DNA of 64,000 nucleotides, taken from NCBI GenBank assembly GCA_944323245.1, contig CALURT010000003.1, positions 1 through 64,000 of the forward strand, given 5' to 3'. Both the position numbers and the translations under genes were made by a program. Of this stretch, positions 4,931 through 36,861 are shown piece after piece; the first letter of the stretch is position 1, and every line of letters starts with the position of its first letter. Under the pieces are notes generated by a model. That model searched no databases, had not been told where the DNA came from, and worked only from the letters and a program-made list of their open reading frames with translations. Origin of the DNA: an uncultured Bacteroidales bacterium. Lineage in GTDB: Bacteria; Bacteroidota; Bacteroidia; Bacteroidales; UBA932.

Positions 4931-5812
4931 TTAGTCTTTAGTAGCTGTGATGCCAGGCAGGATGGCAGTCAAATATCCAAAACCGTCAATTTCGCAATAA
5001 AGACCGTAGTTCGGATCAAAAGTGAGGCCTGTCACATTTCCAGCTTGATCTTTATTTATCGTAACGGTAAGACTACCTTCATCGTATACGTCTAATTGCG
5101 AATCCAATCCGTAAAGTATTATATCAGCGCCCTGATACTGTACGTCCGGTGCAGCCTGACCAAACGGAATGGTTAGCGTAGTCATCGCATCATCAACAGT
5201 GGCATAGTATTCACATGCCGTATCGAATCCGTTGTACAACGCAGGAAGGTTCAGAATCCAAACTCTGTTTTCATCATCAGGATCGCTGCGGAACGTTGCT
5301 GTCCATGTAGTAGGTCCCGTATCATAGTCAGTTCCGGAGAACGTATATGTACCGAACAATGCTGCAAGCGGATGGTCTGTATCAAGGATGGTTACGGTAC
5401 ATTTGTTTTCAGCACCGGCCTGTACGGAACCTGTATTCGCAAATTCAACGGAAAAGGTTATGTCTCCTGTGAATTTCCCGTCAGGCAGGATTTCGAATTC
5501 GATGTACTGCGTCCTGTTTTCAGCGTCGAAGTTCAGTACACCCGAAACGGTAAGCAGTTCGAAGTTGGTCCCTGCTACCGCAGTGCCGTCCACGACCTTG
5601 AAGCTGACGCTTTCCTCAATACCTGCTACCGATGCAAGGGTTACCGGTATTTTCAGGGAAGCTCCATCGGCTTCTGTTATGCTCATTGAACCCTCGTCGA
5701 AGGCTACAAAAGCATCGGCGTCATCGAAGATGTCCGGCTTGTTTATGTCGCAGGAGGCCATTACTGCCCCGGCAGCGACCAAAGCTATTGCATATTTTAT
5801 GATGTTTTTCAT
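4931..5812 (-). CDS. Calx-beta-like surface lipoprotein (locus A)
   Basis: This encodes 293 residues. A signal with lipobox VMASC (Cys20) places it as a lipoprotein. Residues about 33-150 resemble a Calx-beta domain: ITEADGASLKIPVTL, then DGTAVAGTNFE and a closing CTVTILDTDHPLA. The C-terminal half (about 150-293) is a beta-rich domain I do not recognise. The locus B protein at 15793 has the same length and plan, and the locus C protein at 29785 occupies the same slot. Position after susD suggests a surface glycan- or peptide-binding accessory (SusE/F-like role by position), but no ligand can be named. Confidence 0.7.
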   Translation of the reverse strand: MKNIIKYAIALVAAGAVMASCDINKPDIFDDADAFVAFDEGSMSITEADGASLKIPVTLASVAGIEESVSFKVVDGTAVAGTNFELLTVSGVLNFDAENRTQYIEFEILPDGKFTGDITFSVEFANTGSVQAGAENKCTVTILDTDHPLAALFGTYTFSGTDYDTGPTTWTATFRSDPDDENRVWILNLPALYNGFDTACEYYATVDDAMTTLTIPFGQAAPDVQYQGADIILYGLDSQLDVYDEGSLTVTINKDQAGNVTGLTFDPNYGLYCEIDGFGYLTAILPGITATKD

Positions 5813-5830: not shown

Positions 5831-7270
5831 TTAATAACCTTCGTTCTGGACGAGATTTTCATTTACATCCAATTCTCTCTGAGGGATAGGCAGAGCCCAG
5901 CGGTAGTCAGGGAAAGGAATGTTCTGGTTCATCGTTCCGAGAGTGAAGTCGGTACGGGTGAGTGCGTCTCCCCAGCGGGCGAGGTCGAAGACATGGTGTC
6001 CTTCCCATGCGAGCTCCATACGTCTTTCATTCTTGATATCCTGAATCGTTACGGAACCGATGGAAGCCACGCCCCTGTTGCTCCTGATGGTGTTGATGTC
6101 AGATTCCGGAGTGACGCCGGCTATAGTAGCTCCGTTTTTGAGGGCTTCGGCACGGTTCAGATACATCTCGGAGAGACGGAGCACGATGATGTTGTTTGCA
6201 TCAGGGGAACCTTCGCCTTTCCCTGGGTATTTGGCCGTCCACTTCCTGCCTTTGCCGTTGTTTGTGTCAGTAGTCCTGAATCCGGCGGTATATCTGATGT
6301 CGTTCTGGTCGTAGAGTGCAAGGAGGTCGTTGCTTACCATGGCATCGCCTGAGCCGTCAGGGCTTGTCATCCATGTGATGTCTTCCCAGTTGCCGTGCGA
6401 GTAGTTCGATTTGGAACTGAAAACTTCGAAGATAACCTCTCCGCCTTCGCCTGCTATGTTCTTGCCCCAAACATCAGGATACTCGGCGGGGGTCCACATC
6501 TGATAGTTGCCGCTGTTTATGACGAGGGTGGCGTAGTCGGCTGCCTTCTGCCAGTTGCCCATATAGAGATAAACCCTTGAAAGCAAAGCCCTTATAGCGT
6601 CGAGGTTGGCCGCAGCCTTAGAGTCGGTGCCGTCCAAGCGAACGTATTCAGGGTCGATGATGGTCTCTGCTTCAGTAAGGTCAGTCACAATCTGCTCATA
6701 TACCTTGGCGACAGTCTCCCTTGCAGGCTTGCCTTCAGAGTCCGTATGGAGGACTACAGGTACGCCGAGGGATTCCGACTTGTAGGTGTACGGCTGTGCG
6801 TATGTGATGACGCAGTCGAAATGTGCAAGAGCCCTGATGAAGAGGCACTCTGCCTTCAGGTTGTTGAGGTCCTGCTCGGTCACGTCTGTTTCGGTCTTCC
6901 CTGCAAGATTGTCGATAATGTTGTTGGCTGCGGCTATGGTGACGTATGCGTAGGACCATATTCCTGTAGAGTTGGTAGGAAGATAGTTCCAGTTATACTC
7001 CTGAGTGAAACGGTTGGAGTTACGGACGTCGTCCTTGACTCCGTTACCTGAGCGCATGTCAGTACCGAGGGTAAAGACCTGCCCGTACCAGCCGATTTCC
7101 GACAGATAGCCGTAAAGTCCGGCTGTGGCGCTGTTCAGTCCGTCGTATGTGCTGAGAGTGATTTCGTTGCTCTGCTCGAGCTTAGGCTCCCTTACGAGGA
7201 AATCCTGACAAGCTGTAAGTCCCGACACGAATGCTGCCGAGAACAGTATCATATATAATATTCTTTTCAT
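5831..7270 (-). CDS. SusD/RagB-family lipoprotein (locus A)
   Basis: This encodes 479 residues. The start used is ATG at 7270, because the longer frame would start with TTG. The lipobox is GLTAC, followed by QDFL as in most SusD proteins. Four TPR-like helical pairs and a C-terminal region with IRSNRG and ERRMELAWEGHHVFDLARWG are typical of the family. SusD caps its TonB-dependent partner and opens to deliver ligand. The gene starts 14 bp after the locus A susC stop. Its closest relative in the window is locus B SusD (14339), with shared stretches such as EITLSTY and KVYEQIVTDLTEAE. Ligand unknown; presence of a secreted protease in the operon hints at peptides. Confidence 0.93.
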   Translation of the reverse strand: MKRILYMILFSAAFVSGLTACQDFLVREPKLEQSNEITLSTYDGLNSATAGLYGYLSEIGWYGQVFTLGTDMRSGNGVKDDVRNSNRFTQEYNWNYLPTNSTGIWSYAYVTIAAANNIIDNLAGKTETDVTEQDLNNLKAECLFIRALAHFDCVITYAQPYTYKSESLGVPVVLHTDSEGKPARETVAKVYEQIVTDLTEAETIIDPEYVRLDGTDSKAAANLDAIRALLSRVYLYMGNWQKAADYATLVINSGNYQMWTPAEYPDVWGKNIAGEGGEVIFEVFSSKSNYSHGNWEDITWMTSPDGSGDAMVSNDLLALYDQNDIRYTAGFRTTDTNNGKGRKWTAKYPGKGEGSPDANNIIVLRLSEMYLNRAEALKNGATIAGVTPESDINTIRSNRGVASIGSVTIQDIKNERRMELAWEGHHVFDLARWGDALTRTDFTLGTMNQNIPFPDYRWALPIPQRELDVNENLVQNEGY

Positions 7271-7283
7271 ATTCAATCCCTAA

Positions 7284-10200
7284 TTAGAATGAAACTTCTA
7301 TACCTCCGACGAAGCTCTTGACCATGGAGTGGGAAGCTCCCATCGAGTAGCCGAGATAGCCGACCTCAGGGTCGAGCACGTTCAGATCGTGGAATGTGTA
7401 AGGGTTCAGTGCGCTCACGTAGACCCTGATTCCCTGCATCCTGATTTTCTTGAGCACCGAGTCAGGCAGAGAGTATGAAAGGGTGATATCCTTGATTCTC
7501 AGGTAGTCTCCCTTTTTGAGGTAACGGGTGGATGAAGCCGAGTAATTGCCAGGGTCTCCTGCTATTACTATAGGAGTTACTCCCGTGTCTCCCGGTTTCT
7601 CCCAATAGTTGAGGGCAAGGTTCGTGGTATTAGTTCCACTGCTCAGGTTGTATCCGTCCTGAACGTAGGAAGCAGTTTCGAATACCTTGTGTCCGGTTAC
7701 GAATTCGAAGTATGCGCTGAGGCTTAGGCCTTTCCATGATACGGTGGTGTTGAATCCGCCGGTAGCCTTAGGTTCCGGAGACCCCATGTCCACGTATCTT
7801 GCCTTGGTATAGTCGGAAGTGAGTTTTCCGTCTTCGGTCCACCAGAGACCTGCACCCGTGGAAGGGTTGACTCCGTACCAGTCCCTCAGATGATAGGTAT
7901 ATAGGCTTCTGTCCTTAATGATTCTTACCGGAGTACTGTTGTTTCCGTTAGAACTAGGCCTGCTATCCGATACCGTCAGGTATTCGGAATCCCCTATGTC
8001 GAGGACCTTGCTGCGATTGAATGCGATATTGAATCCGGCATGCCAGTTCCAGTCTCCGGAGTCGATGATGTCGCCTTCGATCATGAATTCGACACCTCTG
8101 TTGCGGATGGAACCGGTGTTCATGAAGTTGCTCGAGAATCCTGTAGTGTAAGGCACTTCCTTGCTGAGAAGCATGTCCGTGGTCAGACGGTCGTAAACAT
8201 CGATGCTACCTGTGAGCCTGTAGTTGAAGAATCCGAAATCCAGGCCGACATTCCATGCTTTGTTCTTTTCCCAAGCAAGTTCAGGATTCGCAGGGGTGGA
8301 AGGCTGCATGGTCACGATGCCGTTGTAGACTGCTGAGGAGTAGACTCCGTATGCCCTGTAAGGGGTGATGTTGTTGTTACCGTTCACTCCATAACTGGCA
8401 CGCAGTTTCAGAAGATTGAACCATGAGGATACAGGCTGCATCCAGTCTTCGGAAGATATGTTCCATGAACCTCCTACAGACCAGAACACACCCCATTTCA
8501 TGTTGCTTCCGAAAAGTGAGCTGCCGTCGGCACGTACCGAACCCTGAAAGAAGTATTTGTTCATATAGTTGTAGTCGGCGATACCGAAGAACGAAAGCAA
8601 TGTCTCCTCGGAAAGTCCGTAGTCTATCTGGTCTTTTTCCTTCGTAGATGTAGTCGGATATGGAATCTGCGGGTCCACGTCATCCGACATACCGCCGTAG
8701 TATTCATATCTTTCACTCATGGCTTCCTGGCCCACGGTAACCCTTACATTGTGGGCCTGGGCGAATTCATCGGCGTATGTGATGGTATTGGACGTGGTGA
8801 GCCTCATGTCGTTGGTCCTGTACATGAACAGACGGCTTACGCCCTTGTTGGAACGCGGATCCCAGTACTGGGTCGAATTGACGAACGTTCCTTCGAAGCT
8901 GTCAGTGGTCTTGATGGTGAGCTGAGGTATAGGCTTCCACTCAAGGAACATCGTACCCTGGGCCTTGTATTCCTTGTCATTGTAAGTATCGTATTCCGCT
9001 ACTGCACGAGGGTTTGTGTTGGAGTTTTCCTGAATTGCAGAGTTGTATTCGCCGTTTTCATCGTACATCGGACTCCACGGATTGATGGTGAACATCGAAT
9101 AGATAGGGTTGGAATAGTAGAGGTCGCCCATCTGTCCCGAATTGGAGTCGCCGTAATTGAAGTTGATACGGACTCCTGTCTTGAGCTTCTTGGCGAGTTG
9201 CATGTCTGCGTTCACACGCGCCGTGAAACGGTTGTAGTCCACTCCGTAGAATACGCCCTTGTTCCTGTAGTAGGAAAGGGAAGAGTAGTAGGTGGCTTTT
9301 TCAGTGCCGCCGGAGGCGTTTATCTCGTATTCCTGCACGTTGCCGAGACGGGTAAGTTCCTTGTACCAGTCGGTAGTGCCGTTGGCAAGGAGGTCAGTGG
9401 TATAAGCATCAGGATTCTGACCTGCGTTGGTCAGGGCCATCCTGTTGTAGTCGATGAGTTCCTGTCCTGTAAGAGGGCGGATGTTATGGTCGTTGATGAG
9501 TTGCTGTACTCCGTATTTGGCCCTTGCGGTGAATTTGGCCTGGCCTGACTGGCCGGTCTTGGTGGTCACGATGATGACACCGTTGGCTGCACGGGAACCG
9601 TAGACTGAAGCTGCTGCCGCATCCTTGAGGACGGTGATGGACTCGATGTCGTTAGGGTTGAGGAAGGTGGTGGATGAACCGCCGCCCACACCGGCATTCG
9701 ACAACTGACGGAAGTCTCCCGGAGCTACCGGAATACCGTCGATGACCCACAGAGGTTCGTTGCCTGCGTTGATGGATGAGGTACCGCGCACACGGATTGT
9801 GGTGGTGGAACCCGGCTGGCCTGAACCTGAAGTGATCTGCACACCGGCCATCTTGCCTGCAAGCATCTTGTCGACAGTCATGGCAGGGGATTCTGCAAGT
9901 CCTTCGTTCTTGATGGAAGTGACTGCTCCTGTGTTGGCTTCACGGGTCATGGTACCGTAGGCTACCACGATGGCATCGCTGAGGTAGCTGGCTTCCATTT
10001 CCAATGCGCAGTCCACGATGATTTCGCCGTTAACAGGGATCTCGACAGTCTTGTATCCTACAAAACTGAACACCAGTACGGCGCTGTCCCTTGACTCGAC
10101 GTTGATGGTGTAGGAACCGTCTTCAGCGGCTGATGTTCCTGTCATGGTGCCTTTGACCGCTATCGATGCGAACGGAACGGGTGTCCCGTCGGCTGCGTCG

Positions 10201-10292
10201 GTAACGACTCCGCTCACTTCCTGACTCTGTGCGGAAGCCGCGGCTGCTGACAAAAGCATCAGGATTGTCACGAAAAACAATCTGATTTTCAT
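7284..10292 (-). CDS. SusC/RagA-family TonB-dependent transporter (locus A)
   Basis: This encodes 1002 residues. The start used is the second ATG (10292), which matches the only ATG available in locus B. A signal peptide (1 to about 22) leads to a carboxypeptidase-regulatory-like domain (about 26-105), a plug domain (about 110-235) containing SVYGSRAANGVI, and a TonB-dependent barrel ending in GGIEVSF. With SusD it imports a large ligand across the outer membrane. The 66-bp leader holds recombination site A but no promoter-like pair, so the operon is predicted silent in this orientation and switched on when the 10358-11230 segment inverts. Sequence is clearly paralogous to locus B SusC and more distant from locus C SusC. 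Confidence 0.93.
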   Translation of the reverse strand: MKIRLFFVTILMLLSAAAASAQSQEVSGVVTDAADGTPVPFASIAVKGTMTGTSAAEDGSYTINVESRDSAVLVFSFVGYKTVEIPVNGEIIVDCALEMEASYLSDAIVVAYGTMTREANTGAVTSIKNEGLAESPAMTVDKMLAGKMAGVQITSGSGQPGSTTTIRVRGTSSINAGNEPLWVIDGIPVAPGDFRQLSNAGVGGGSSTTFLNPNDIESITVLKDAAAASVYGSRAANGVIIVTTKTGQSGQAKFTARAKYGVQQLINDHNIRPLTGQELIDYNRMALTNAGQNPDAYTTDLLANGTTDWYKELTRLGNVQEYEINASGGTEKATYYSSLSYYRNKGVFYGVDYNRFTARVNADMQLAKKLKTGVRINFNYGDSNSGQMGDLYYSNPIYSMFTINPWSPMYDENGEYNSAIQENSNTNPRAVAEYDTYNDKEYKAQGTMFLEWKPIPQLTIKTTDSFEGTFVNSTQYWDPRSNKGVSRLFMYRTNDMRLTTSNTITYADEFAQAHNVRVTVGQEAMSERYEYYGGMSDDVDPQIPYPTTSTKEKDQIDYGLSEETLLSFFGIADYNYMNKYFFQGSVRADGSSLFGSNMKWGVFWSVGGSWNISSEDWMQPVSSWFNLLKLRASYGVNGNNNITPYRAYGVYSSAVYNGIVTMQPSTPANPELAWEKNKAWNVGLDFGFFNYRLTGSIDVYDRLTTDMLLSKEVPYTTGFSSNFMNTGSIRNRGVEFMIEGDIIDSGDWNWHAGFNIAFNRSKVLDIGDSEYLTVSDSRPSSNGNNSTPVRIIKDRSLYTYHLRDWYGVNPSTGAGLWWTEDGKLTSDYTKARYVDMGSPEPKATGGFNTTVSWKGLSLSAYFEFVTGHKVFETASYVQDGYNLSSGTNTTNLALNYWEKPGDTGVTPIVIAGDPGNYSASSTRYLKKGDYLRIKDITLSYSLPDSVLKKIRMQGIRVYVSALNPYTFHDLNVLDPEVGYLGYSMGASHSMVKSFVGGIEVSF

Positions 10293-10357
10293 AAGCATTA
10301 AAAATTAGTTAAACATTAATATTATAAGTTCTGTATTTTCGTACAGCATGTTGCACA

Positions 10358-10375
10358 ATTTAACGGGCGTTTATT
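10358..10375 (-). promoter_or_regulatory. Recombination site A (inverted copy)
   Basis: Read on the minus strand the site is AATAAACG-CC-CGTTAAAT: one perfect and one imperfect 8-bp arm around the asymmetric core CC. The 17 bases at 10362-10378 are identical to site B in inverse orientation. It sits 66 bp upstream of locus A susC and 34 bp upstream of the recombinase start. Confidence 0.75.
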
Positions 10376-10408
10376 TCAACTCAAAAACACAATAAAACCA
10401 TTACAGAC

Positions 10409-11008
10409 ATGATTTACGCATACATCAGGGTCAGCACGGAGATGCAGACCTACGCCGGACAACAGTTCGAAATCACCGAATACTGCAAAAGGAACGGACT
10501 TTCAGTGGACAAATGGGTTACGGAACACGTCTCGGGCACCAAGGCAGTGGAAAAGCGCACACTCGGCAGGACATTCCGCAGGATGAAGGCAGGCGACCTC
10601 CTCCTGTGTACGGAAATTTCAAGACTCGGCCGTAACATGCTGATGATAATGTCGATACTCAATTATTGCTCGGCCCGCGGCATCCGCATCCACACTATCA
10701 AGGACGGTTTCGAGCTCTCTGACAACATCAACTCCAAAATCATCGCATTCGCCTTCGCCCTCGCAGCGGAAATAGAAAGAAACCTCATATCGCAGAGGAC
10801 AAAGGAAGCATTGGCCCAGAAAAAGGCCTCGGGAACAAGACTCGGACGCCCGGAAGGAAGCTCAAAGAAAAGAGTTTCAATTTGTAAGCAAATGCCGAAA
10901 ATATCCGATATGATAAATTCCGGCGTACCGTTGGTAAAAATCGCAAAGGAAGTCGGGGTACACCGGAATACGCTCAAAAAATACATGGACGGATACTCCG
11001 GATAAATT
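10409..11008 (+). CDS. Small serine recombinase (DNA invertase family)
   Basis: This encodes 198 residues, the length of Hin/Gin/Mpi-type invertases. The catalytic serine is Ser9 in YIRVST; the ISRLGRN motif supplies Arg72 and Arg75. The long E-helix follows at about 118-137 (ALAAEIERNLISQRTKEAL), and a helix-turn-helix occupies about 166-192 (IAKEVGVHRNTLKKYM). Small serine invertases bind 26-bp dyad sites, cut at a two-base core and rotate the strands; direction is set by core asymmetry. The gene lies between inverted dyads with a CC core, in a segment it should invert. Its own promoter is not clear. The same enzyme probably acts on site C, 14 kb away. Host factors such as Fis are not expected in this phylum. 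Confidence 0.92.
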
Positions 11009-11061
11009 CGATGAAAAAATTTCAAAATTACAATTTCAACTTTCGAGAGGGCAAATTCTAT

Positions 11062-11080
11062 AAAATTGATAGCCAATTTT
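11062..11080. terminator. Weak hairpin behind the recombinase
   Basis: AAAATTG-ATAGC-CAATTTT is a perfect but A/T-only 7-bp stem, 53 bp after the recombinase stop. The T-run is short, so termination here is uncertain. The rest of 11009-11160 holds no feature I recognise. Confidence 0.3.
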
Positions 11081-11165
11081 GCGTGATTTTAACTAAACCC
11101 GAAGTCAGAGCCCGACAATAGTATTATTTGTAAATTTAGATATGTCTTTGTATATCAGCAAATTA

Positions 11166-11197
11166 TTTGTGAAATTGAAATTTCTTTAGCAACTTTG
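11166..11197 (+). promoter_or_regulatory. Switch promoter facing locus B
   Basis: TTTG (11166-11169) is followed after 20 nt by CAACTTTG (11190-11197), one base from the Bacteroidetes -7 pattern TAnnTTTG; a C follows, as is common. It points right, across site B, into locus B susC. No equivalent pair is found between site A and locus A susC or upstream of site C, so this appears to be the only mobile promoter of the system. Confidence 0.65.
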
Positions 11198-11212
11198 CGC
11201 GCTGGTCGCTGA

Positions 11213-11230
11213 AATAAACGCCCGTTTATT
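11213..11230 (+). promoter_or_regulatory. Recombination site B
   Basis: AATAAACG-CC-CGTTTATT is a perfect 8-bp dyad around the non-palindromic core CC. Bases 11208-11228 (21 nt) are identical to those at site C (25045-25065). It lies 16 nt downstream of the switch promoter's -7 box, so it is probably part of the transcribed leader, and 83 bp upstream of locus B susC. Confidence 0.8.
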
Positions 11231-11313
11231 CTGCGTATGGTTTTCCTCTTTTTGCCGGGAAACAGGGAAAAAGTAAGTATAGATATTTATGTTTAATTAA
11301 GTTCTTTTTGCTT

Positions 11314-14300
11314 ATGAAAAAAGTAAAGTTGTTTTTCACAGCAATTATGGTGCTGCTTGCGGCAGACATAGCTTCAGCGCAGAGCGCAGAAGTCAATGGT
11401 ACCGTAAGGGATGCGGAGACGGGAGAACCTGTACCGTTCGCATCGGTAGTCCTGCACGGCACCATGACAGGTACGGTAACAGCAGATGATGGTTCCTACT
11501 CCATTTCTGTACCATCTTTACAGGATGCTGTGTTAGAATTCAGTTTTATCGGCTATAGGACCGTATTGGTGCCGGTAGAAGGGAAGTCTGTAGTGGATTG
11601 CGAACTTGAAGTGGACGCAATGGCCCTTGAAGATGTGATCGTCGTGGCTTACGGCGCCACCAGACGCGAGGACGTTACGGGAGCCGTGTCTTCAGTGGAA
11701 AGTGAAACGATTGCTTCAGTGCCTGTGACTTCAGTGGACAAGATGCTGGCAGGTAAACTTGCCGGCGTGCAGATTACCACCAATTCCGCACAGCCGGGAG
11801 CCGCTTCAAGCATCCGTATCAGGGGTACGTCATCCATCAATTCAAGCAACGAGCCTCTGTGGGTCATTGACGGTATTCCGGTCATAAACGGAGATCTGGC
11901 TACATTCGACACCTCATCGTCCAGCTCGTTTACAGCCTTGAATCCTAACGATATAGAATCCATAACAGTCCTCAAGGACGCTGCTGCGGCTTCCGTGTAC
12001 GGCTCCCGTGCCGCAAACGGAGTGATTCTCGTGACTACCAAAAGCGGAAAGGCGGGAAAGGCACAGTTCGATGCCAGAGTGAAGTATGGTGTATCGTGGC
12101 TTCAGAGCGACAGCGGATTCCGCATGATGACGGCTGCAGAGCTCCTCGGCTATCAGAGGGACGCCATCATCAATGCCGGAATGGATCCTGACGATCCGAC
12201 CGGTTCTTATTACCGTCCGCTCTCGCTGCTCAACGGCAAACTTACCAACTGGGTAGACCACACGTCCCGTCTCGGTACGCTCCAGGAATATGAAATCAGT
12301 GCCAGAGGCGGAAACGACAGGGCGAAATACTTCTCGTCGGTATCATACCATAATAATGAAGGTGTCTACTACGGTATCGGCTACGAGAAGATAACTGCCA
12401 GGGTCAATGCCGACTACAAGCTGCTCAGGAACCTTGAGACAGGAGTCCGTATCAACGCTTCCTATGGAAATCAGGAATCTGATGTCCCTCTCAACTCGCT
12501 GTACAATGCTTCCCCGGTATTCGCCGGACTGACAATGCTGCCTTGGGTCGATCCTTACAACGAGGACGGCACGCACAATGTAAACATCCCGAGCAATTCC
12601 AACTACAACCCTCGTGCAACTGCCGAATATGACACCACGACGGAGCGTCAATGGCACATCAACGGCAGCATGTACCTCAGATGGGAGCCTGTGAAGCACC
12701 TTGTCATCGAGAGCAGGAATTCCGCCGAGCTGATATATAACAAATACAATATGTTCAGCAGTGTCAAATCCAACGGTAACCCTAATCCGGAGTCCGGAAG
12801 ACAGGTGACATGGACGGAACACCTCCAGCTTACCACATCCAATACCATCAACTATGCGAATGTATTCGGAGGCTACCATTCTTTCCGCGCCCTTGTCGGC
12901 CAGGAAGCCATGAGGTACAACTATGAAGGACTGAACGCACTCGGCTATGCCGCCCAGGAAGAAATTCCTTTCCTGAACAGTTCGGACCAGTCCCGCATAC
13001 GGGCAGAGGAGTTGTTGAGCAAGGAGACGTTGCTTTCCTATTTCGGAATAGTGGACTACAACTATGACAACAGGTATTTCCTCCAGGCATCCCTCCGCGC
13101 AGACGGAAGTTCGCTTTTCGGAAAGAACAGCAAATGGGGTATGTTCTGGTCGGCATCTGCTTCATGGAACATCAATCAGGAGAAATTCCTGCGCAATTTC
13201 AAGCCATTGGATCTTCTGAAACTCAGGTTCAGCTACGGAGTGAACGGAAATAACGGTATCGCCGCCTACAGGGCTTACGGAGTGTACGGTACGACTACCT
13301 ACAACGGTGTTACCGGCATGTCCCCGTCATCCCCTGCAAACGACGAACTGTCTTGGGAGAAGAACGCCACATGGAATGTCGGACTCGACTTTGCATTCTT
13401 CAACAGGCTCAGAGGTAGCGTGGATGTGTACAACCGTCTTACTAAGGACATGCTTCTGACAGTCAAGGTGCCTTGGACCACAGGTTTCAACAGCAACTTC
13501 AGGAATGTCGGTTCGATGAAGAATACCGGCGTGGAAGTGCAGATTGACGGTGACATCATCTACAACAGCGATTTCGTCTGGAATGTAGGATTCAACCTTG
13601 CCTATAACGAAAACGAGATTCTCGACCTCGGAGGAGAGGACTTCATTTCAGGAGGCTCATTCGTCCGCTATGCAGTGGGACATTCCCGTTACAGCTACTA
13701 TGTACCGCTTTATTATGGAGTCAATCCGTCCAACGGTGAGGCTCTGTGGATTGCAGGGAAGAACGACAACGGCGACCCTATTCTGACCAACCAGTATAAC
13801 AAGGCCATGTACGACTACGTGGGTTCTCCGGACCCGAAGGTTATCGGAGGTTTCAACACTACTTTCAGTTGGAAAGGACTGTCCCTGAGCGCATTCTTCG
13901 AGTATAGGACCGGATGTGACGACCTGATTCTCAACGAGCAGAGTTACATGAACTCGGACGGTGCGGAGATGACCCTGAACCAGATGGCATCGTCCCTCAA
14001 CTACTGGAAGAAGCCGGGCGATAACGGGGTTAATCCAAAACCTATAGCAGGAAACTCCACGAACTCGGCCGCAGCTGTCAGCTCGCGCTGGCTTGAAGAT
14101 GGAAGCTATATCAGAATCAAGGATGTGACCCTTTCATACTCGCTTCCTCAGAAAGCCCTCGACAAGATGCGCATCAAAGGGCTCAGGTTTTATGTCAGCG
14201 GACTTAACCTGTACTGCTTCAACGATGTCAACTGGTGGGATCCGGATCTCGGACCGATCGGCTACGGCGCAGGAACCTACCCGCTTACCAAATCATTCGT

Positions 14301-14325
14301 AGGAGGCATTGAAGTGTCATTCTAA
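11314..14325 (+). CDS. SusC/RagA-family TonB-dependent transporter (locus B)
   Basis: This encodes 1003 residues, starting at ATG 11314 (an earlier in-frame TTG is unlikely). A signal peptide ends in SAQ; a carboxypeptidase-regulatory-like domain (about 26-105), a plug with SVYGSRAANGVILVTTKSG, and a barrel ending in GGIEVSF follow. It is a close paralogue of locus A SusC: the N-terminal domain, plug and last 60 residues are very similar, while barrel loops differ, which fits different ligands or immune evasion. The leader contains site B and is read from the switch promoter, so this operon is predicted to be active in the assembled orientation. Confidence 0.93.
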   Translation: MKKVKLFFTAIMVLLAADIASAQSAEVNGTVRDAETGEPVPFASVVLHGTMTGTVTADDGSYSISVPSLQDAVLEFSFIGYRTVLVPVEGKSVVDCELEVDAMALEDVIVVAYGATRREDVTGAVSSVESETIASVPVTSVDKMLAGKLAGVQITTNSAQPGAASSIRIRGTSSINSSNEPLWVIDGIPVINGDLATFDTSSSSSFTALNPNDIESITVLKDAAAASVYGSRAANGVILVTTKSGKAGKAQFDARVKYGVSWLQSDSGFRMMTAAELLGYQRDAIINAGMDPDDPTGSYYRPLSLLNGKLTNWVDHTSRLGTLQEYEISARGGNDRAKYFSSVSYHNNEGVYYGIGYEKITARVNADYKLLRNLETGVRINASYGNQESDVPLNSLYNASPVFAGLTMLPWVDPYNEDGTHNVNIPSNSNYNPRATAEYDTTTERQWHINGSMYLRWEPVKHLVIESRNSAELIYNKYNMFSSVKSNGNPNPESGRQVTWTEHLQLTTSNTINYANVFGGYHSFRALVGQEAMRYNYEGLNALGYAAQEEIPFLNSSDQSRIRAEELLSKETLLSYFGIVDYNYDNRYFLQASLRADGSSLFGKNSKWGMFWSASASWNINQEKFLRNFKPLDLLKLRFSYGVNGNNGIAAYRAYGVYGTTTYNGVTGMSPSSPANDELSWEKNATWNVGLDFAFFNRLRGSVDVYNRLTKDMLLTVKVPWTTGFNSNFRNVGSMKNTGVEVQIDGDIIYNSDFVWNVGFNLAYNENEILDLGGEDFISGGSFVRYAVGHSRYSYYVPLYYGVNPSNGEALWIAGKNDNGDPILTNQYNKAMYDYVGSPDPKVIGGFNTTFSWKGLSLSAFFEYRTGCDDLILNEQSYMNSDGAEMTLNQMASSLNYWKKPGDNGVNPKPIAGNSTNSAAAVSSRWLEDGSYIRIKDVTLSYSLPQKALDKMRIKGLRFYVSGLNLYCFNDVNWWDPDLGPIGYGAGTYPLTKSFVGGIEVSF

Positions 14326-14338
14326 AATCATACAGGAC

Positions 14339-15775
14339 ATGAAAAAATACATATTATATACAGTAGCGGTCATAGCGGCCGTGACAGTTTCCGGATGTAA
14401 GGATTTCCTTACGGAGGAGCCGCCTCTGGACCAGAGTACGGAAATCACTTTGTCCACATACGAGGGACTCAACAGTGCTACGGCCGGAGCCTATTCCCGT
14501 CTCGCATCGTCCGGATGGTACGGCGGGGAGTTCATCCTGCTGAACGAAATGAAGACCTCGAACGGCAAGAAGTACATCGGCACCGAATACGACACGGGCC
14601 GTATGGAGGAATGGTATCAGCTCAATTACAACTCCCAAAGCACATCAAGCCTGTACGGGAGCGCATATTATGTCATATCGCAGGCAAACAATGTCATCGA
14701 CAACCTTACCGAAGACAAGGGTGACGCCCAGGACTTGAACAACCTGAAGGCCGAATGCCTCTTCCTGCGTGCCCTCTCGTATTTCGATCTTGTGAGAACT
14801 TACGCCTATCCTTATTCATATGCACCGGAATCTCTCGGAGTGCCGATCGTTCTCCATACAGCGTCGAACGACCAGTCTCCCCGTGCTACCGTGGCTAAGG
14901 TTTACGAGCAGATTGTGACAGATCTTACCGAGGCGGAACGTATAATCGACCCTGAATACAGGCGTGCAGGAGGTGCTGATGCCCGGGCATTCGCTTCCAT
15001 CGACGCCATCAGGGCTCTGCTCAGCCGTGTGTACCTTTATATGGAGAACTGGCAGGGTGCCGCCGACTACGCCACTAAGGTAATCAACAGCGGGAACTAC
15101 AGCCTGTGGACAGTTGAAGAGATGACGGACGGGGCCTGCTATACAGTCGATGTCCCTGACGGAGGAGAAGTAATATTCGAGATATACGGAGGGCAGACGA
15201 ACAGCTATGATCCGGGGCTTGAAGGACTCTGGTCCCTGACTGCCGGTTCGTACGGGGATGCCGGCTGTGCCCAGGATATCCGCAACCTTATCGGGAGTGA
15301 CACTGACGATGTCCGCAATGACCTGTTTGTCAATGACTCGAAAGGAGTAAATGCAAGTGTATGGCATACTGCAAAATATGCAGGAAAAGGAATAGGTTCA
15401 AATGTCGACTATACCAATGTCATCGTACTTCGCCTTGCGGAAATGTACCTTAACAGAGCCGAAGCGCTGAGCAATGGCGCTCGGATTGACGGGCGCACGG
15501 CAGACATGGACCTTCAGACTCTCGCAGAGAACAGAGGAACGACTGCCCCGTCGTCTACACCTGACGGCATATTCACCGAAAGACAGAAAGAACTCAACTG
15601 GGAAGGACATCTGTGGTTCGACCTCGGAAGACAGGGAAGAAGTATGACCCGCACGGATGTCGCCAATAGTGCGATACCGTCAGAGATTGCATTCCCTGGC
15701 GACCTTTGGGCAATGCCTATTCCTGAATCGGAAATCGAGGTGAATCCGAACCTTGAACAGAACCCAGGGTTTTAA
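14339..15775 (+). CDS. SusD/RagB-family lipoprotein (locus B)
   Basis: This encodes 478 residues from ATG 14339, 13 bp after the susC stop. The lipobox is TVSGC with KDFL behind it. The family's TPR-like helices and the C-terminal ERQKELNWEGHLWFDLGRQG motif are present. It aligns along its length with locus A SusD, including DQSTEITLSTYEGLNSATAG near the N-terminus, so the two susCD pairs arose by duplication. It should form the lid of the locus B SusC. The middle region (about 250-340) is the least similar part and is where ligand contacts would be expected to vary. Confidence 0.93.
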   Translation: MKKYILYTVAVIAAVTVSGCKDFLTEEPPLDQSTEITLSTYEGLNSATAGAYSRLASSGWYGGEFILLNEMKTSNGKKYIGTEYDTGRMEEWYQLNYNSQSTSSLYGSAYYVISQANNVIDNLTEDKGDAQDLNNLKAECLFLRALSYFDLVRTYAYPYSYAPESLGVPIVLHTASNDQSPRATVAKVYEQIVTDLTEAERIIDPEYRRAGGADARAFASIDAIRALLSRVYLYMENWQGAADYATKVINSGNYSLWTVEEMTDGACYTVDVPDGGEVIFEIYGGQTNSYDPGLEGLWSLTAGSYGDAGCAQDIRNLIGSDTDDVRNDLFVNDSKGVNASVWHTAKYAGKGIGSNVDYTNVIVLRLAEMYLNRAEALSNGARIDGRTADMDLQTLAENRGTTAPSSTPDGIFTERQKELNWEGHLWFDLGRQGRSMTRTDVANSAIPSEIAFPGDLWAMPIPESEIEVNPNLEQNPGF

Positions 15776-15792: not shown

Positions 15793-16674
15793 ATGAAGAA
15801 TATATACAAAATCATTTCAGGAGCCGCACTGATTGCTGCACTTGCATCATGCGATCTCAACACGACTCCGGAGTTTGATGACGCAGACGCTTTTGTAGCG
15901 TTTGATGTGACTGCCGTGTCTGTAAACGAAGATAAGGGGACATTGAGCATTCCGGTGACTGTCGCATCCGTAAATCCGATGAATGTTACGGTAAGTTACG
16001 TTACGGAAGACGGTTCGGCAAAGGCAGGGGAAAATTACTCCCTTGTCGACGAATCTGCCGTGCTTGTCTTTGACGGAACGACGAGGACACAGAATATCGA
16101 GATCAAAATTACGGATATAGATAACTACACAGGCAACATGACATTCAACATACGTCTTGTCAGCGCCGGGTCTCTGAAGCTCGGAGCAGAATCCGTATGT
16201 ACCGTGACCATTGTCGACATGGATCATCCGCTTGCTTCTATTGTAGGCGACTACACCATAGTGGCAAACGATTATTTTGCCGGCAGCACTGCATCATGGA
16301 CAATGACGTTCATGACGGATCCTTCCGATGAGTACGTAATCTGGATTGACGGCCTTTGCCAGGGACTGAGCGGTTATCCGGATGTAGACTACAGATTTTT
16401 CGGAAACGTCACGATGGCTGAAGACGGACAGTCTGTCGTATCGATTGCATTGCCTTGCGGCCAGAAAGCGGTCTCATCGGTAAATGGCAATGACGCAGTT
16501 CTGTGGTCTTTTGACGGTGAGGGCGTAAACAATACGGGAAATATAACAATGACCCAGACCGAACCGGGCGTATTCACAATAGAAGAAGGATACGGTATCG
16601 GATATGATGCCGGCGATGGCAGCGTGTCATTGTTCGGCCTTTACCTCCCGGGTGCTGTCCTGACAAAAAATTAA
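15793..16674 (+). CDS. Calx-beta-like surface lipoprotein (locus B)
   Basis: This encodes 293 residues, exactly the length of its locus A counterpart. A strong Shine-Dalgarno-like GGAGG sits 8 bp before the ATG, which is unusual in this region. The lipobox is ALASC (Cys20). A Calx-beta-like domain (about 33-150) contains DGSAKAGENYS and closes with CTVTIVDMDHPLASIVGDY. The C-terminal half is beta-rich and unrecognised, ending in GLYLPGAVLTKN, close to the locus A ending. It is presumably exposed on the surface beside SusCD. Calx-beta domains elsewhere bind calcium; whether this one does cannot be read from the sequence. Confidence 0.7.
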   Translation: MKNIYKIISGAALIAALASCDLNTTPEFDDADAFVAFDVTAVSVNEDKGTLSIPVTVASVNPMNVTVSYVTEDGSAKAGENYSLVDESAVLVFDGTTRTQNIEIKITDIDNYTGNMTFNIRLVSAGSLKLGAESVCTVTIVDMDHPLASIVGDYTIVANDYFAGSTASWTMTFMTDPSDEYVIWIDGLCQGLSGYPDVDYRFFGNVTMAEDGQSVVSIALPCGQKAVSSVNGNDAVLWSFDGEGVNNTGNITMTQTEPGVFTIEEGYGIGYDAGDGSVSLFGLYLPGAVLTKN

Positions 16675-16695
16675 GTATTCGTAATATAATTGAGT

Positions 16696-18315
16696 ATGAA
16701 AAGAATATTATCATATATGACAATTGCGGCTGTCCTTACCGCCTGCTCCGAGATGTACGGTCCGGAGCAGGTCTCCACAGCCGTGGTAAATTCGGAGGGA
16801 ATCGAGATCACCGGCATAGCCGTGACCGACAATTCCTTGACTTTCACCCTGACTCCGAAAGGCGAGGCGGCATATTACTCATACCTTGTAGATCAGGCGG
16901 ACGCTTCACAGGCTTTGGATTCGTCCACAATCTATAGTCTTGGCTATGACGGAGCTGTGGCTGAAGGTATCATCAAATGGACTTCCGAAAAGACGAGTTC
17001 GACCGTTACCATTGACGAGCTGGAGCCGAACACCACTTATCAGATCTATGCGGTGGCAGGCAGCCCTACCGGTGTCCCGAGCTCCGTGGCTGTGGCTAAT
17101 GCCAGGACTTCTGACGGTGTGAATCCTTCTCATGCATCGTTCTCTTCCAAAGGGAATGTCGTTACCATTTCTTTCAGTGAAGGCGTGACAAGAGGAGAGG
17201 GAGCTGTCACGATTGCTTACTATGCCACCAATACCGCAGAGTTCTATTCAGACCCGCAGCCTGTGGGGACCCTGACTGCGGCTGCAGAGGACATTGTGTC
17301 AGACGGTTCTTCGACCGTGACTGTAACCGTGAACGGAGTTCCGGCAGGGGCCCTATACACGGTAAGTCTTGCTGCAGGAGCATTCAAGGACAGTGCAGGA
17401 AATTCTTCCAAAGCATTGGAGAGCGGGGTGACCATAACGGAAGAGGGTCCTGCACCGAAAAACATTTATGGGCAGATACCTGCTGTGGCGTTTGAAATAG
17501 CCCCTGTAGAAGATGATGTCTTTACTGATCCTTCGCTCCCGATAACGACAACCATTGATTCGGAATATGAATTGTCCGGGTATGGGAAAGGTACCGCAAG
17601 TGTTGTTTTTCAGAATGCCGTGAAAACTACCGAAATAGCTCTGACTGCAGGATCTGATTTCGGTCTTATGTCGACCGACGGTACCATTGCGGTAATACTT
17701 CCGGAGAACCCTGAACGCGGCGATGATGTCATTCTGACTATAGGTGAAGGAGCATTCCTCGATATCTACGGCAACGGAAACGCCGAGTGGACCGCCACCC
17801 TGAAATATTCATACGGATACACCATGGAAGATATTGTAGGTGAATATGTTGCATTGGGCGCATCGGCAGTTGACGGAAATACATATTATCTTACCGAAGG
17901 TGCAGACTCGTTTGTGACAATAACAGAGGACGACTCCGAGGAAGGATGCAATGTCGCCATTTCAGGCATATACAGCAATGATGCAAAGATATACGGACAT
18001 TTCGATTTTGATTCCGGAATACTTTCCATTCCTGATCTCCAGTATCTTACAGACGTATATCTGCAAGGTGTGGCTTTCGAGCTTTATTTTGCAAATTACA
18101 GTGATGAGGTTCCGGTAAATATGACTGTTGTACAATCCGGTATGATTCAGTCGTCAGAACCTTGGATGCTGTATTTGCCGGATGCAGGCGGTTATCTTGA
18201 TGTATATTCCGCTACGCAGATGACCCGTCAGGACCAGACTTCCCAGACCGGTCAGTTGAAAGCCCATGGGGCTGCAAGGCACGATTCCAAGATTAAAGGG
18301 ACTGTTGCAAGATAG
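16696..18315 (+). CDS. Ig/FN3-like lipoprotein specific to locus B
   Basis: This encodes 539 residues from ATG 16696 (the upstream TTG is not needed). The lipobox is VLTAC (Cys17). An FN3-like domain (about 28-135) carries ELEPNTTYQIYAVAG; an SbsA-type Ig-like domain (about 145-250) carries GVPAGALYTVSLAAGAF and KDSAGN; a second such domain (about 255-365) follows, and a C-terminal unit of about 150 residues is unrecognised. It has no counterpart in locus A. By position and architecture it is a long surface adhesin- or binding-type protein exported with SusCD. The final 40 residues are polar and low in hydrophobics, unlike a sorting domain. Confidence 0.65.
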   Translation: MKRILSYMTIAAVLTACSEMYGPEQVSTAVVNSEGIEITGIAVTDNSLTFTLTPKGEAAYYSYLVDQADASQALDSSTIYSLGYDGAVAEGIIKWTSEKTSSTVTIDELEPNTTYQIYAVAGSPTGVPSSVAVANARTSDGVNPSHASFSSKGNVVTISFSEGVTRGEGAVTIAYYATNTAEFYSDPQPVGTLTAAAEDIVSDGSSTVTVTVNGVPAGALYTVSLAAGAFKDSAGNSSKALESGVTITEEGPAPKNIYGQIPAVAFEIAPVEDDVFTDPSLPITTTIDSEYELSGYGKGTASVVFQNAVKTTEIALTAGSDFGLMSTDGTIAVILPENPERGDDVILTIGEGAFLDIYGNGNAEWTATLKYSYGYTMEDIVGEYVALGASAVDGNTYYLTEGADSFVTITEDDSEEGCNVAISGIYSNDAKIYGHFDFDSGILSIPDLQYLTDVYLQGVAFELYFANYSDEVPVNMTVVQSGMIQSSEPWMLYLPDAGGYLDVYSATQMTRQDQTSQTGQLKAHGAARHDSKIKGTVAR

Positions 18316-24826: not shown

Positions 24827-24849
24827 AATATGACTTTTTTAATTATTGT

Positions 24850-24867
24850 CTTATGCGTAGGATAAAA
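24850..24867. repeat. Operator-like repeat, copy 1
   Basis: CTTATGCGTAGGATAAAA matches the right two-thirds of the palindrome at 24910-24933 with two changes. It lies 24 bp upstream of the ATPase start codon, probably within its leader. Confidence 0.45.
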
Positions 24868-24876
24868 GTATGGTTA

Positions 24877-24899
24877 TTTTATCTTATTGACAGGACAAA
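24877..24899. repeat. Operator-like repeat, copy 2
   Basis: TTTTATCTTATTGACAGGAC plus AAA is a degenerate version of the palindrome at 24910. It overlaps the -7 box (24896-24903) of the ATPase promoter. Confidence 0.45.
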
Positions 24900-24927
24900 T
24901 ATATATCATTTTTATCTTATGCGCAAG
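24896..24927 (-). promoter_or_regulatory. Promoter of the AAA/DUF4143 ATPase
   Basis: On the minus strand CTTG (24924-24927) is followed after 20 nt by TATATTTG (24896-24903), an exact -7 match. The boxes are overlapped by palindrome copies 3 and 2. Confidence 0.55.
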
Positions 24928-24933
24928 ATAAAA
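24910..24933. repeat. Operator-like palindrome, copy 3
   Basis: TTTTATCTT-ATGCGC-AAGATAAAA has perfect 9-bp arms. It covers the -33 region of the ATPase promoter. With copies 1 and 2 it forms a series of three, spaced about 30 bp apart, as expected of a repressor operator array. The cognate regulator is not evident. Confidence 0.55.
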
Positions 24934-24968
24934 TCATAAATAAAGCCACTACCCGACAGACATAGGAC

Positions 24969-25033
24969 TTTTTCGTCCTATAACCATAAAAAATCTGATT
25001 TTTCGCAATTTTTTCGGCCTATAACCATAAAAA
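24969..25033. repeat. Two 24-bp direct repeats upstream of site C
   Basis: Copies at 24969-24992 and 25010-25033 agree in 23 of 24 bases (TTTTTCG, one variable base, then CCTATAACCATAAAAA). They are 41 bp apart start to start, close to four helical turns. The first copy is also part of the hairpin ATAGGAC-TTTTTC-GTCCTAT (24962-24981). They end 17 bp before site C. Activator binding sites for locus C or accessory recombination sites are possible. Confidence 0.6.
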
Positions 25034-25049
25034 GTGGCGGAAATGCTGA

Positions 25050-25067
25050 AATAAACGCCCGTTTAAA
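25050..25067 (+). promoter_or_regulatory. Recombination site C
   Basis: AATAAACG-CC-CGTTTAAA has the same core as sites A and B and the same orientation as site B. Bases 25045-25065 are identical to 11208-11228. It lies 42 bp upstream of locus C susC. Nothing resembling TTTG/TAnnTTTG lies upstream of it, so locus C looks promoterless as assembled. Confidence 0.75.
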
Positions 25068-25108
25068 AGTGCACGAAAATATAATATGTTTAACTAATTG
25101 CTCAACAA

Positions 25109-28100
25109 ATGAAGAAAATCAGATTATTTTTCCTGATGTTGGCGGTAACCGTGACTTCTGCAGCTTACGCCCAGGACATTACGGTATCCGGCAACGTGAC
25201 GGAAGCCTCTACAGGCGAACCTCTTGTAGGAGCTACCGTATTCGTTGAAGGCACGACCACCGGCGCCACGACGGATGCCGACGGACATTATTCCATCTCG
25301 GTATCAGCCGACGGTGAACTGACGGTATCCATGATCGGGTACGTGTCGCAGACGATAGCCGTAGACGGCAGGACGGTCATCGATGTAGCCATGGCCGAAG
25401 ACTCTTACGACCTTGAGGAACTCATCGTCGTGGCCTATGGTACAGCCAAGAAAGAATCCTTTACCGGTTCGGTAGCCGTGATGGGAGACGAGGAACTTGC
25501 CCAAAGAAAGGTCTCGAACATTACCAAGGCCTTGGACGGACTTGCTCCCGGAGTGCAGGCCACTTCCGGTTCGGGACAGCCTGGTTCGAGCTCCACAATC
25601 ATCATCAGAGGATTCGGTTCCATCAATGCGTCAAACACCCCTCTGTACGTAGTTGACGGAGTCCCTTACGACGGATCCATCAGCGCCATCAGACCGGATG
25701 ACATAGAAAGCATAAGCATATTGAAGGACGCATCCGCATCCGTACTTTACGGTTCGAGGGCAGCCAACGGTGTGGTACTCATCACTACCAAGAAAGGAAG
25801 TTCCGACGGTATCACGGTGGACCTCAATATCAAGGTCGGCGTATCTTCAAGGGCCATCCCGAGATATGAAACCGTAGGAGCCAAGGACTTTATGGAAATC
25901 ATGTACTCTGCCTTTGCAAATGCCTATGGAGCCGCAGATGCGGCCTATCAGATGGCGTACGGCGCACAGTCCATCCTTGGAAGCGGCCAGATGTACAACC
26001 CTTACGGAATTTCAGCCGAAGAGCTCTTCACTCCGGACGGCAAGGTCCGTGACGACGCCAGACTTCTCTGGGACGAAGACTGGTTGGACGAAGTGACGGA
26101 CAACGCAGCCCTGAGACAGGAATATGGAGTAAGCGTATCCGGAGGCAACGATAAGACGCAGTACATGTTCTCCCTCGGTTACCTCAACGAAGACGGTGTC
26201 CTCGAGACAACGAATTTCGAAAGGTACAGCGGAAGGGTGAATGTCGAGACGCAGGCCAAGCCGTGGTTCGCTGCAGGATTGGGCGCAAACTTCGCACGCA
26301 ACAATACCAACAGCTCCTATACGGAAGCCGGCGCATCGTCCAACGTCTTCTACTCGGCCCAGCTGATGTCGCCTATCTATCCTGTCTACATGCGTGACCC
26401 GGCCACGGGAGAGTTCCTCCTCGATGAGGCCGGAGATAAAATGTTCGACTACGGAGAGTCAAGACCTGCAGGACAGCAGACAAACTTCAATAGTATCGCC
26501 ACCCTGTACGATGACAAATACAACACTACTTCGTACACCGTATCGGCAAGGACGCACATCGATTTCATGGGAGTCGAGAACCATTGGTCGCAGGGCCTGA
26601 AATTCCAGGTCAATTTCGGAACGGACTACTACAGTTCCAATGAAATGATCTATTACAACCCTGAATTCGGAAATGCCGAATCCGTAGGAGGCCGTATCCA
26701 GAAAGCAAACACGACAGCCCTCGGATACACGTTCAACCAGCTGTTGTCCTACAACAGGACATTCGGCAAGCACAACGTGGACATCCTCGCAGGACATGAG
26801 TATTATTCCTATACTACATCCGGCCTCAGCGGCCACAAGACAGGCCTGCCGGGCCCGAATATCTATGAGCTCGATGCCGCAGCGGTAATCGTAGGTACCG
26901 GAAGTTCCACCGACAACGACAGGATAGAATCGGTCCTTTCCCGTGTAGGCTACAGCTATGATGACAAATATTTCGTAAGCGGAAGCTGGAGGATGGACGG
27001 CTCTTCACGTTTCGCACCGGAGTCCCGCTGGGGCAACTTCTGGTCTGCAGGCCTCTCCTGGGTCGTATCAAGGGAGAAATTCATGAGCAACGTGCCTTGG
27101 ATTTCAAGCCTCGCTGTCAAGGCCTCTTACGGAGTGCAGGGAAACAATGCCGTAGGATCCAACTATTATCCTTATCAGGCGTTGTATGACACCGGTTATC
27201 CGAACGCAACCCTTCCGGGTGCGACAATAGGCGATGTCGCCAACGAGGACCTGACATGGGAGTCCAACCGGAACTTCAATGCCGGATTCGAGACACGCAT
27301 CCTGAATTATCTCGACCTGACCTTCGAGTATTACAACAGGACTACTGTGGACATGCTCCTCGCTTATCCTCTCCCGTTGTCATCAGGTTTCGGCAGCTAC
27401 TACCGCAATGCCGGCTCGATGCGTAACAGCGGTATCGAATTCGCCCTGACAGGTCATATATTCAATACCAATGACTTCCAATGGGATGTAACATGGATGG
27501 GTTCTACCGTGAACAACAAGGTTCTCGAACTCACCGAAGACGGTGCCGACATCATGGCTTCAAGCATACAGCTTATCCGTGAAGGCGAGGAACTCTATTC
27601 ATACTATGTATCCCGCTCTGCCGGAGTGGACCCTATGACAGGAGAGAAAATGTACTGGGCCACGGACGAGAACGGCAACGACTACATCACCAAGGATGCA
27701 GTTGAGGCACAGAACAACAGGGTGGTCGCCGGAAGCAGGATTCCTGACCTTTACGGTTCCATCTCCACGGCCCTGCGCTGGAAGAACCTCGATTTCTCCA
27801 TATCCACCAATTATTCCATCGGAGGAAAGGTGTACGACGAGGTCTATTATGAAATGATGAGCTGTTACTATGTGGCTGAAACCAAGCACGTGGACATGCT
27901 CAGGGCATGGAAACAGCCGGGAGACATCACCGATGTCCCGAGATATGAAATAGGAGAAACCCCGATTGTCACCGATGACAAACTCTTCGATGCATCCTAC
28001 TTCTCCATCAAGAACATCACCCTCGGATATACCCTGCCGCACAAATGGACTTCCAGAATAGGGTTCAAGGCCGCACGTTTTTCCGTATCCGCCGACAACC

Positions 28101-28216
28101 TGTATATCTTCACGAGCCTCAAGGGTATGGACCCTCAGTATTCGCTCACAGGCGGAACTTCATACGATTATGCCGCCACGAGGACGGTTTCATTCAATAT
28201 CGATCTTAAATTCTAA
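25109..28216 (+). CDS. SusC/RagA-family TonB-dependent transporter (locus C)
   Basis: This encodes 1035 residues. A signal peptide ends in AYA|Q, followed by a carboxypeptidase-regulatory-like domain (about 22-105), a plug with SVLYGSRAANGVVLITTKKG, and a barrel ending FNIDLKF. It is a member of the same family as the locus A and B transporters but clearly more distant in plug and barrel. The leader, however, is close to that of locus A (shared blocks CGAAAATA, TATAATAT and ATGTTTAACTAATT) and contains site C. Expression probably depends on recombination bringing in a promoter or on an activator at the 24969-25033 repeats. Confidence 0.93.
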   Translation: MKKIRLFFLMLAVTVTSAAYAQDITVSGNVTEASTGEPLVGATVFVEGTTTGATTDADGHYSISVSADGELTVSMIGYVSQTIAVDGRTVIDVAMAEDSYDLEELIVVAYGTAKKESFTGSVAVMGDEELAQRKVSNITKALDGLAPGVQATSGSGQPGSSSTIIIRGFGSINASNTPLYVVDGVPYDGSISAIRPDDIESISILKDASASVLYGSRAANGVVLITTKKGSSDGITVDLNIKVGVSSRAIPRYETVGAKDFMEIMYSAFANAYGAADAAYQMAYGAQSILGSGQMYNPYGISAEELFTPDGKVRDDARLLWDEDWLDEVTDNAALRQEYGVSVSGGNDKTQYMFSLGYLNEDGVLETTNFERYSGRVNVETQAKPWFAAGLGANFARNNTNSSYTEAGASSNVFYSAQLMSPIYPVYMRDPATGEFLLDEAGDKMFDYGESRPAGQQTNFNSIATLYDDKYNTTSYTVSARTHIDFMGVENHWSQGLKFQVNFGTDYYSSNEMIYYNPEFGNAESVGGRIQKANTTALGYTFNQLLSYNRTFGKHNVDILAGHEYYSYTTSGLSGHKTGLPGPNIYELDAAAVIVGTGSSTDNDRIESVLSRVGYSYDDKYFVSGSWRMDGSSRFAPESRWGNFWSAGLSWVVSREKFMSNVPWISSLAVKASYGVQGNNAVGSNYYPYQALYDTGYPNATLPGATIGDVANEDLTWESNRNFNAGFETRILNYLDLTFEYYNRTTVDMLLAYPLPLSSGFGSYYRNAGSMRNSGIEFALTGHIFNTNDFQWDVTWMGSTVNNKVLELTEDGADIMASSIQLIREGEELYSYYVSRSAGVDPMTGEKMYWATDENGNDYITKDAVEAQNNRVVAGSRIPDLYGSISTALRWKNLDFSISTNYSIGGKVYDEVYYEMMSCYYVAETKHVDMLRAWKQPGDITDVPRYEIGETPIVTDDKLFDASYFSIKNITLGYTLPHKWTSRIGFKAARFSVSADNLYIFTSLKGMDPQYSLTGGTSYDYAATRTVSFNIDLKF

Positions 28217-32424: not shown

Positions 32425-32455
32425 TTTGGAAAAGAAAGGGATTGGCTTATATTTG
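32425..32455 (+). promoter_or_regulatory. Promoter of the cobalamin-regulated btuG-like gene
   Basis: TTTG (32425-32428), 19 nt, then TATATTTG (32448-32455): an exact match to the Bacteroidetes consensus, followed within about 15 nt by the riboswitch. Confidence 0.8.
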
Positions 32456-36830: not shown

Positions 36831-36861
36831 CAAAGATATGTCTTATCTTTAATAATTCAAA
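36831..36861 (-). promoter_or_regulatory. Promoter of pflB-pflA
   Basis: Minus strand: TTTG (36858-36861), 19 nt, TATCTTTG (36831-36838), an exact consensus match. The -7 box is the right half of a perfect dyad, AAAGATA-AGACA-TATCTTT, which could be an operator. Confidence 0.8.

Follow-up and report, generated by a model that had tools for sequence, protein, structure and literature searches.

The window analysed here, a 64,000-nucleotide stretch of DNA from an uncultured Bacteroidales bacterium, contains a short segment bounded by inverted recombination sites, in which a serine DNA invertase gene lies next to an outward-pointing promoter motif. The segment is flanked by SusC/SusD operons, and a further operon with its own site lies downstream. 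Operons A and B are paralogous, each with SusC, SusD, a Calx-beta protein and a T9SS-tailed subtilase, and operon C is a separate SusC/SusD pair. The features, with the basis of each assignment, are as follows.

7284..10298, minus strand: SusC of operon A, predicted off (homology searches); downstream lie SusD (5831-7267), a Calx-beta protein (4931-5812) and a T9SS-tailed subtilase (2202-4859)
10353..10380, minus strand: site A, inverted relative to site B, with outer half CGTTAAATTGTGC toward operon A (site alignment)
10409..11005, plus strand: Mpi-family serine DNA invertase of 198 aa, inside the putative invertible segment (Pfam, NF009949)
11055-11023, minus strand: full-consensus promoter-like pair TTTG-N21-TAATTTTG, 3' of the invertase and antisense into it (motif scan)
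11166..11169, plus strand: -33 box TTTG of the putative cassette promoter (motif match; relatives conserve the motif)
11190..11197, plus strand: -7 box CAACTTTG (consensus TAnnTTTG with one mismatch)
11198..11207, plus strand: expected transcription start zone, directly before site B (from promoter geometry)
11208..11235, plus strand: site B, with inner half GCTGAAATAAACG, core CC at 11221-11222 and outer half CGTTTATTCTGCG (site alignment)
11311..14325, plus strand: SusC of operon B, predicted on (homology searches); downstream lie SusD (14339-15775), a Calx-beta protein (15793-16674), a lipoprotein (16690-18315) and a T9SS-tailed subtilase (19196-21844)
25045..25072, plus strand: site C, oriented as site B, about 43 nt before the start codon of operon C (site alignment)
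25109..28216, plus strand: SusC of operon C, predicted off, followed by SusD (28228-29754)

The invertase is full length and is present as a single copy in the genome. It matches the Pfam Resolvase domain (PF00239, E=3.3e-33) and, weakly, HTH_7, and it aligns with the Mpi family model NF009949 over 194 of 203 positions with a score of 269.1 bits, marginally below the curated cut-off of 272. It thus has the Resolvase domain, the C-terminal HTH and the family-level similarity of an Mpi-type enzyme. When the protein was aligned to gamma-delta resolvase and a Gin-type invertase, the R-V-S-T and R-L-G-R motifs were found to be kept.

The three sites share an identical 17-bp match, TGAAATAAACGCCCGTT, at 10362-10378 on the minus strand (A) and at 11210-11226 and 25047-25063 on the plus strand (B and C). 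A search of the 2.3-Mb assembly allowing up to two mismatches returned these three sites only, all at this locus. Each contains AAACG-CC-CGTT, with arms like ARACG-NN-CGT, and the inverted repeat used by Mpi in B. fragilis is ARACGTTCGTN (quoted in PMC8375218). The alignment of sites from relatives shows the dyad AAACG-NN-CGTTT, which in many leaders is accompanied by an outer GTGCA. Sites A and C have GTGCA in their outer halves and site B is without it, so recombination at site B may be less efficient. Between site and start codon, the leaders measure about 64 nt for operon A, 80 nt for operon B and 43 nt for operon C, and no Rfam family of regulatory RNA was found in them.

Promoters recognized by sigma-ABfr in the Bacteroidetes have the consensus TTTG at about -33 and TAnnTTTG at -7 (PMC7366714). 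The initial annotation had described a pair TTTG-N20-CAACTTTG pointing across site B into operon B, and this pair was confirmed at 11166-11197 (+). It conforms to TTTG-N19-21-TAnnTTTG with one mismatch, since its -7 box opens with C instead of T. In 5000 dinucleotide shuffles, the chance of at least one such pair in 11006-11228 (+), the 223 bases from the invertase stop to site B, was 0.012. No other outward pair of this type lies on the cassette, which agrees with the single outward promoter proposed initially, and the accompanying statement that operons A and C have no comparable pair also held, with none of fewer than two mismatches in 10299-10440 (-) or 24827-25108 (+). A promoter situated between inverted sites and pointing out across one of them is the arrangement of an invertible-promoter phase switch.

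With either T or C accepted as the opening base of the -7 box, the 64-kb window contains the motif at 11166, 32425 and 46982 on the plus strand and at 36861 and 11055 on the minus strand. The match at 32425 (+) has the strict form and opens a cobalamin riboswitch (RF00174, 32449-32638, plus strand), and the match at 36861 (-) precedes the start of a long reading frame (36806) by about 55 nt; these two positions suggest that the motif marks promoters in this genome. The full-consensus pair at 11055 (-), which did not figure in the initial annotation, lies inside the cassette and faces no operon directly across a site. It was set aside as a promoter and is probably a chance match, the strict form being found in 1 of 30 related loci.

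The conservation of the promoter was examined in a set of 40 invertase relatives from genome contigs together with further loci from genomes of the same genus. Among the 30 related loci with a clear site pair, the stretch from the invertase stop to the site contained TTTG-N19-21-NAnnTTTG in 18, against 1.01 expected from shuffles, and the strict promoter form in 9, against 0.15 expected. Of the 18 motif-bearing loci, 16 have a -7 box that ends 16-20 nt short of the crossover core, and the other two have distances of 81 and 83 nt; in the window, site B begins 12 nt beyond the box and its AAACG-CC-CGTTT core 18 nt beyond. One relative (L034) carries CACTTTTG as its -7 box at the same spacing as in the window. 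At the corresponding position, several loci scored as negative, among them L041, L055 and L059, have a variant that differs by one base or in spacing. The invertases of three of the 30 loci (L065-L067) are identical or almost so; these loci are not independent of one another, and none of them is among the 18. Since the distance from promoter to crossover core is kept in relatives at invertase identities of only about 45-85%, assignment of the putative promoter to the cassette is supported, and this conservation is stronger proof of a candidate promoter than the shuffle probability obtained for the window. In one lineage (L011), the promoter lies 5' of the invertase and points away from it, so that the order of gene and promoter in the cassette is reversed.

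The opposite edge of the cassette, which faces the off partner, has the motif in 1 of the 30 loci (0.70 expected). This chance-level frequency, together with the shortness of the leaders, supports the view that the off partners would be without a promoter of this type of their own. The invertase gene likewise has no sigma-ABfr-type promoter within 220 nt upstream, as is the case in nearly all relatives, and 30 nt separate its start codon from site A, a distance of between 0 and about 100 nt in many relatives. The gene may depend for its transcription on the off-operon leader or on a promoter that is weak or of another type, or it may be transcribed only in certain circumstances. If transcription from the off leader is true, the off partner would set the rate of switching.

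The relatives also differ in how cassette and operons are joined. In L034, whose invertase is 85% identical to that of the window, the cassette promoter points into the operon C orthologue, the operon A orthologue lies to the left, and the upstream flank of C lies inverted beside operon A. Recombination of A with B and then of A with C, starting from the order in the window, gives this arrangement except that operon B is missing. A short reading frame (MKKIMKIF...) and a terminator-like hairpin adjoin the third site there (L034:9700-9920), and the reading frame may be the remnant of a deleted operon. Two loci, L042 and L043, share a flank of 9.6 kb (83% identity). In one of them it adjoins the off side of the cassette and in the other the on side, and the break falls at the site; the same holds for 7.25 kb, 90% identical, in L049 and L050. 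Both orientations are observed among L034, L042/L043 and L049/L050, the comparison being one across species. Exchanges with a third, distal SusC operon are found in the pairs L008/L046 and L039/L048, and in L046 the distal third site is 4.6 kb away and adjoins SusC. SusC genes are present on both sides in 31 of the 51 loci examined, and contig ends cut many of the rest. The SusC start regions of L008 (2484-3559) and L046 (4271-5346) are 99.3% identical and their cassettes only 79%, which suggests a recent exchange of partner operons between species.

Taken as a whole, the locus is best explained as an invertible one-promoter cassette that selects among operons A, B and C, an interpretation in which we have high confidence. 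The cassette would extend from the core of site A to that of site B (about 10366-11222, approximately 850 bp) and would contain, besides the Mpi-family serine invertase, a single sigma-ABfr-type promoter that points outward at the 3' edge. The neighbouring invertase probably flips the cassette, by recombining the AAACG and CGTTT arms around the two-base CC core. As site A is inverted relative to B and C, recombination of A with B would flip the cassette and shift the promoter from operon B to operon A, and a subsequent A x C inversion would flip 14.7 kb and put the promoter before operon C. Transcription would then be limited to the partner joined to the promoter edge. Because the crossover would fall inside the leader, each operon would retain its own leader and ribosome-binding region, to which the cassette would add the promoter together with a transcribed stretch of about 20 bases that ends at the core. 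What the sequences show directly is the conserved promoter motif with its fixed spacing, the pairing of the sites and the differing arrangements among relatives. We infer from them that these sites are the substrate of the invertase, that the promoter functions, and that expression of the operons depends on orientation.

The state proposed initially for the assembly, with B on and A and C off, is well supported in these terms, as one orientation read from one assembly: the promoter carried by the cassette lies at B, the leaders of A and C have no promoter motif of this type, and the site would lie in the leader. The claim that the leader RNA of the active operon includes the recombination site is likewise upheld by the geometry, in which the -7 box ends 12 nt before site B and the transcript would carry most or all of it. 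A 5'-terminal RNA hairpin formed by the transcribed site was also considered; the fold predicted for the B-on form was stronger than those for the A-on and C-on forms, but this was a single-sequence fold and was not used.

The locus might instead be a two-way switch between A and B only, with site C a relic or so rarely used that operon C is regulated otherwise. The A-B segment is indeed short in comparison with the inversion between A and C, an A x B inversion would have to come first for operon C to gain the promoter, and most relatives show just two sites near the invertase. However, site C has the intact 17-bp match and the GTGCA outer half, the cassette in L034 is joined to operon C with the flank of C inverted beside A, and L046 has its distal third site beside SusC. 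We therefore regard restriction to A and B as unlikely.

It is still less probable that the cassette is a frozen remnant, in which recombination is ancestral and operon B is constitutively expressed in this strain. The single orientation in the assembly would be expected on that reading, yet the invertase is full length with its catalytic-region motifs kept, 17 bp are identical across three sites, and cassettes are kept in dozens of species. We give hardly any credence to a chance motif, with the operons driven by promoters in their own leaders whatever the orientation. The -7 box does deviate from consensus by one base, and the scan covered this promoter type only, but the fixed spacing is conserved in relatives, and the leaders, with 43-80 nt from site to start codon, could hardly accommodate such promoters, if at all, and contain no motif of this type. 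The one-promoter selector among three operons is thus the reading that we prefer.

In the Hin/hix system of Salmonella, a segment of about 1 kb with inverted sites and a two-base core contains the invertase gene and an outward promoter. The position of the hin gene within its invertible segment is documented (PMC5903667). The layout of the present cassette is alike, with a serine invertase and an outward promoter in one segment. In contrast to Hin, the present segment is flanked on either side by divergent SusC/SusD operons, with a third site 14 kb away, and instead of an on/off choice the cassette promoter would be in use at one of several operons. Mpi of B. fragilis acts at 13 dispersed regions, seven of which are capsule promoters (PMC4747536). 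The serine invertase family (NF009949) and the site arms ARACG-NN-CGT are common to both systems, whereas the cassette invertase has three genomic sites, each of them at this locus and with CC, not TT, as core, and its gene sits inside its own segment. With three local sites only, the enzyme does not have the target distribution of a global master regulator of many dispersed promoters. By its naming in the Tsr series, Tsr0667 of B. fragilis is a tyrosine recombinase, an enzyme of a different class from the one here. It makes a shufflon-type selection among several SusC/SusD operons by multiple inversions (PMC4747536). The choice among such operons is alike, but Tsr0667 acts also at nine other regions, while here a serine invertase is carried with the promoter.

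What is new is therefore the combination of a Hin-like layout, an Mpi-type enzyme with Mpi-type arms, and a choice among SusC/SusD operons; the kinds of component were already known. A literature search found no report joining the Cryptobacteroides lineage with phase variation. The cassette would represent a compact selector, with one promoter and several operons, by which a widespread gut lineage, as yet uncultured, would choose among its outer-membrane importers. Dozens of species share the promoter, its distance from the crossover core and the exchange of partners, so the operon in the ON state should be predictable from any assembly and could be checked in metatranscriptomes. A more general idea, which we consider doubtful, is that the Mpi-type invertases of Cryptobacteroides-type Bacteroidales have become self-carrying promoter cassettes, moving around among SusC/SusD operons and acting as one-of-N selectors, with the invertase promoterless and transcribed from the off-operon leader.

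When the invertase tree was labelled by core sequence, the labels were scattered and the test said little. Upstream of site C and of an AAA_14/DUF4143 gene lie two copies of TTTTTCG(T/G)CCTATAACCATAAAAA, 41 bp apart (24969-25033), and a sequence related to these repeats is also present in the inverted flank of L034. The site cores vary among loci (CC, CT, GA, TC and AC), and several genomes (G015, G019, G038 and G005) have three to five invertase homologues. Given these differing cores and multiple homologues, separate switches may coexist in one genome.
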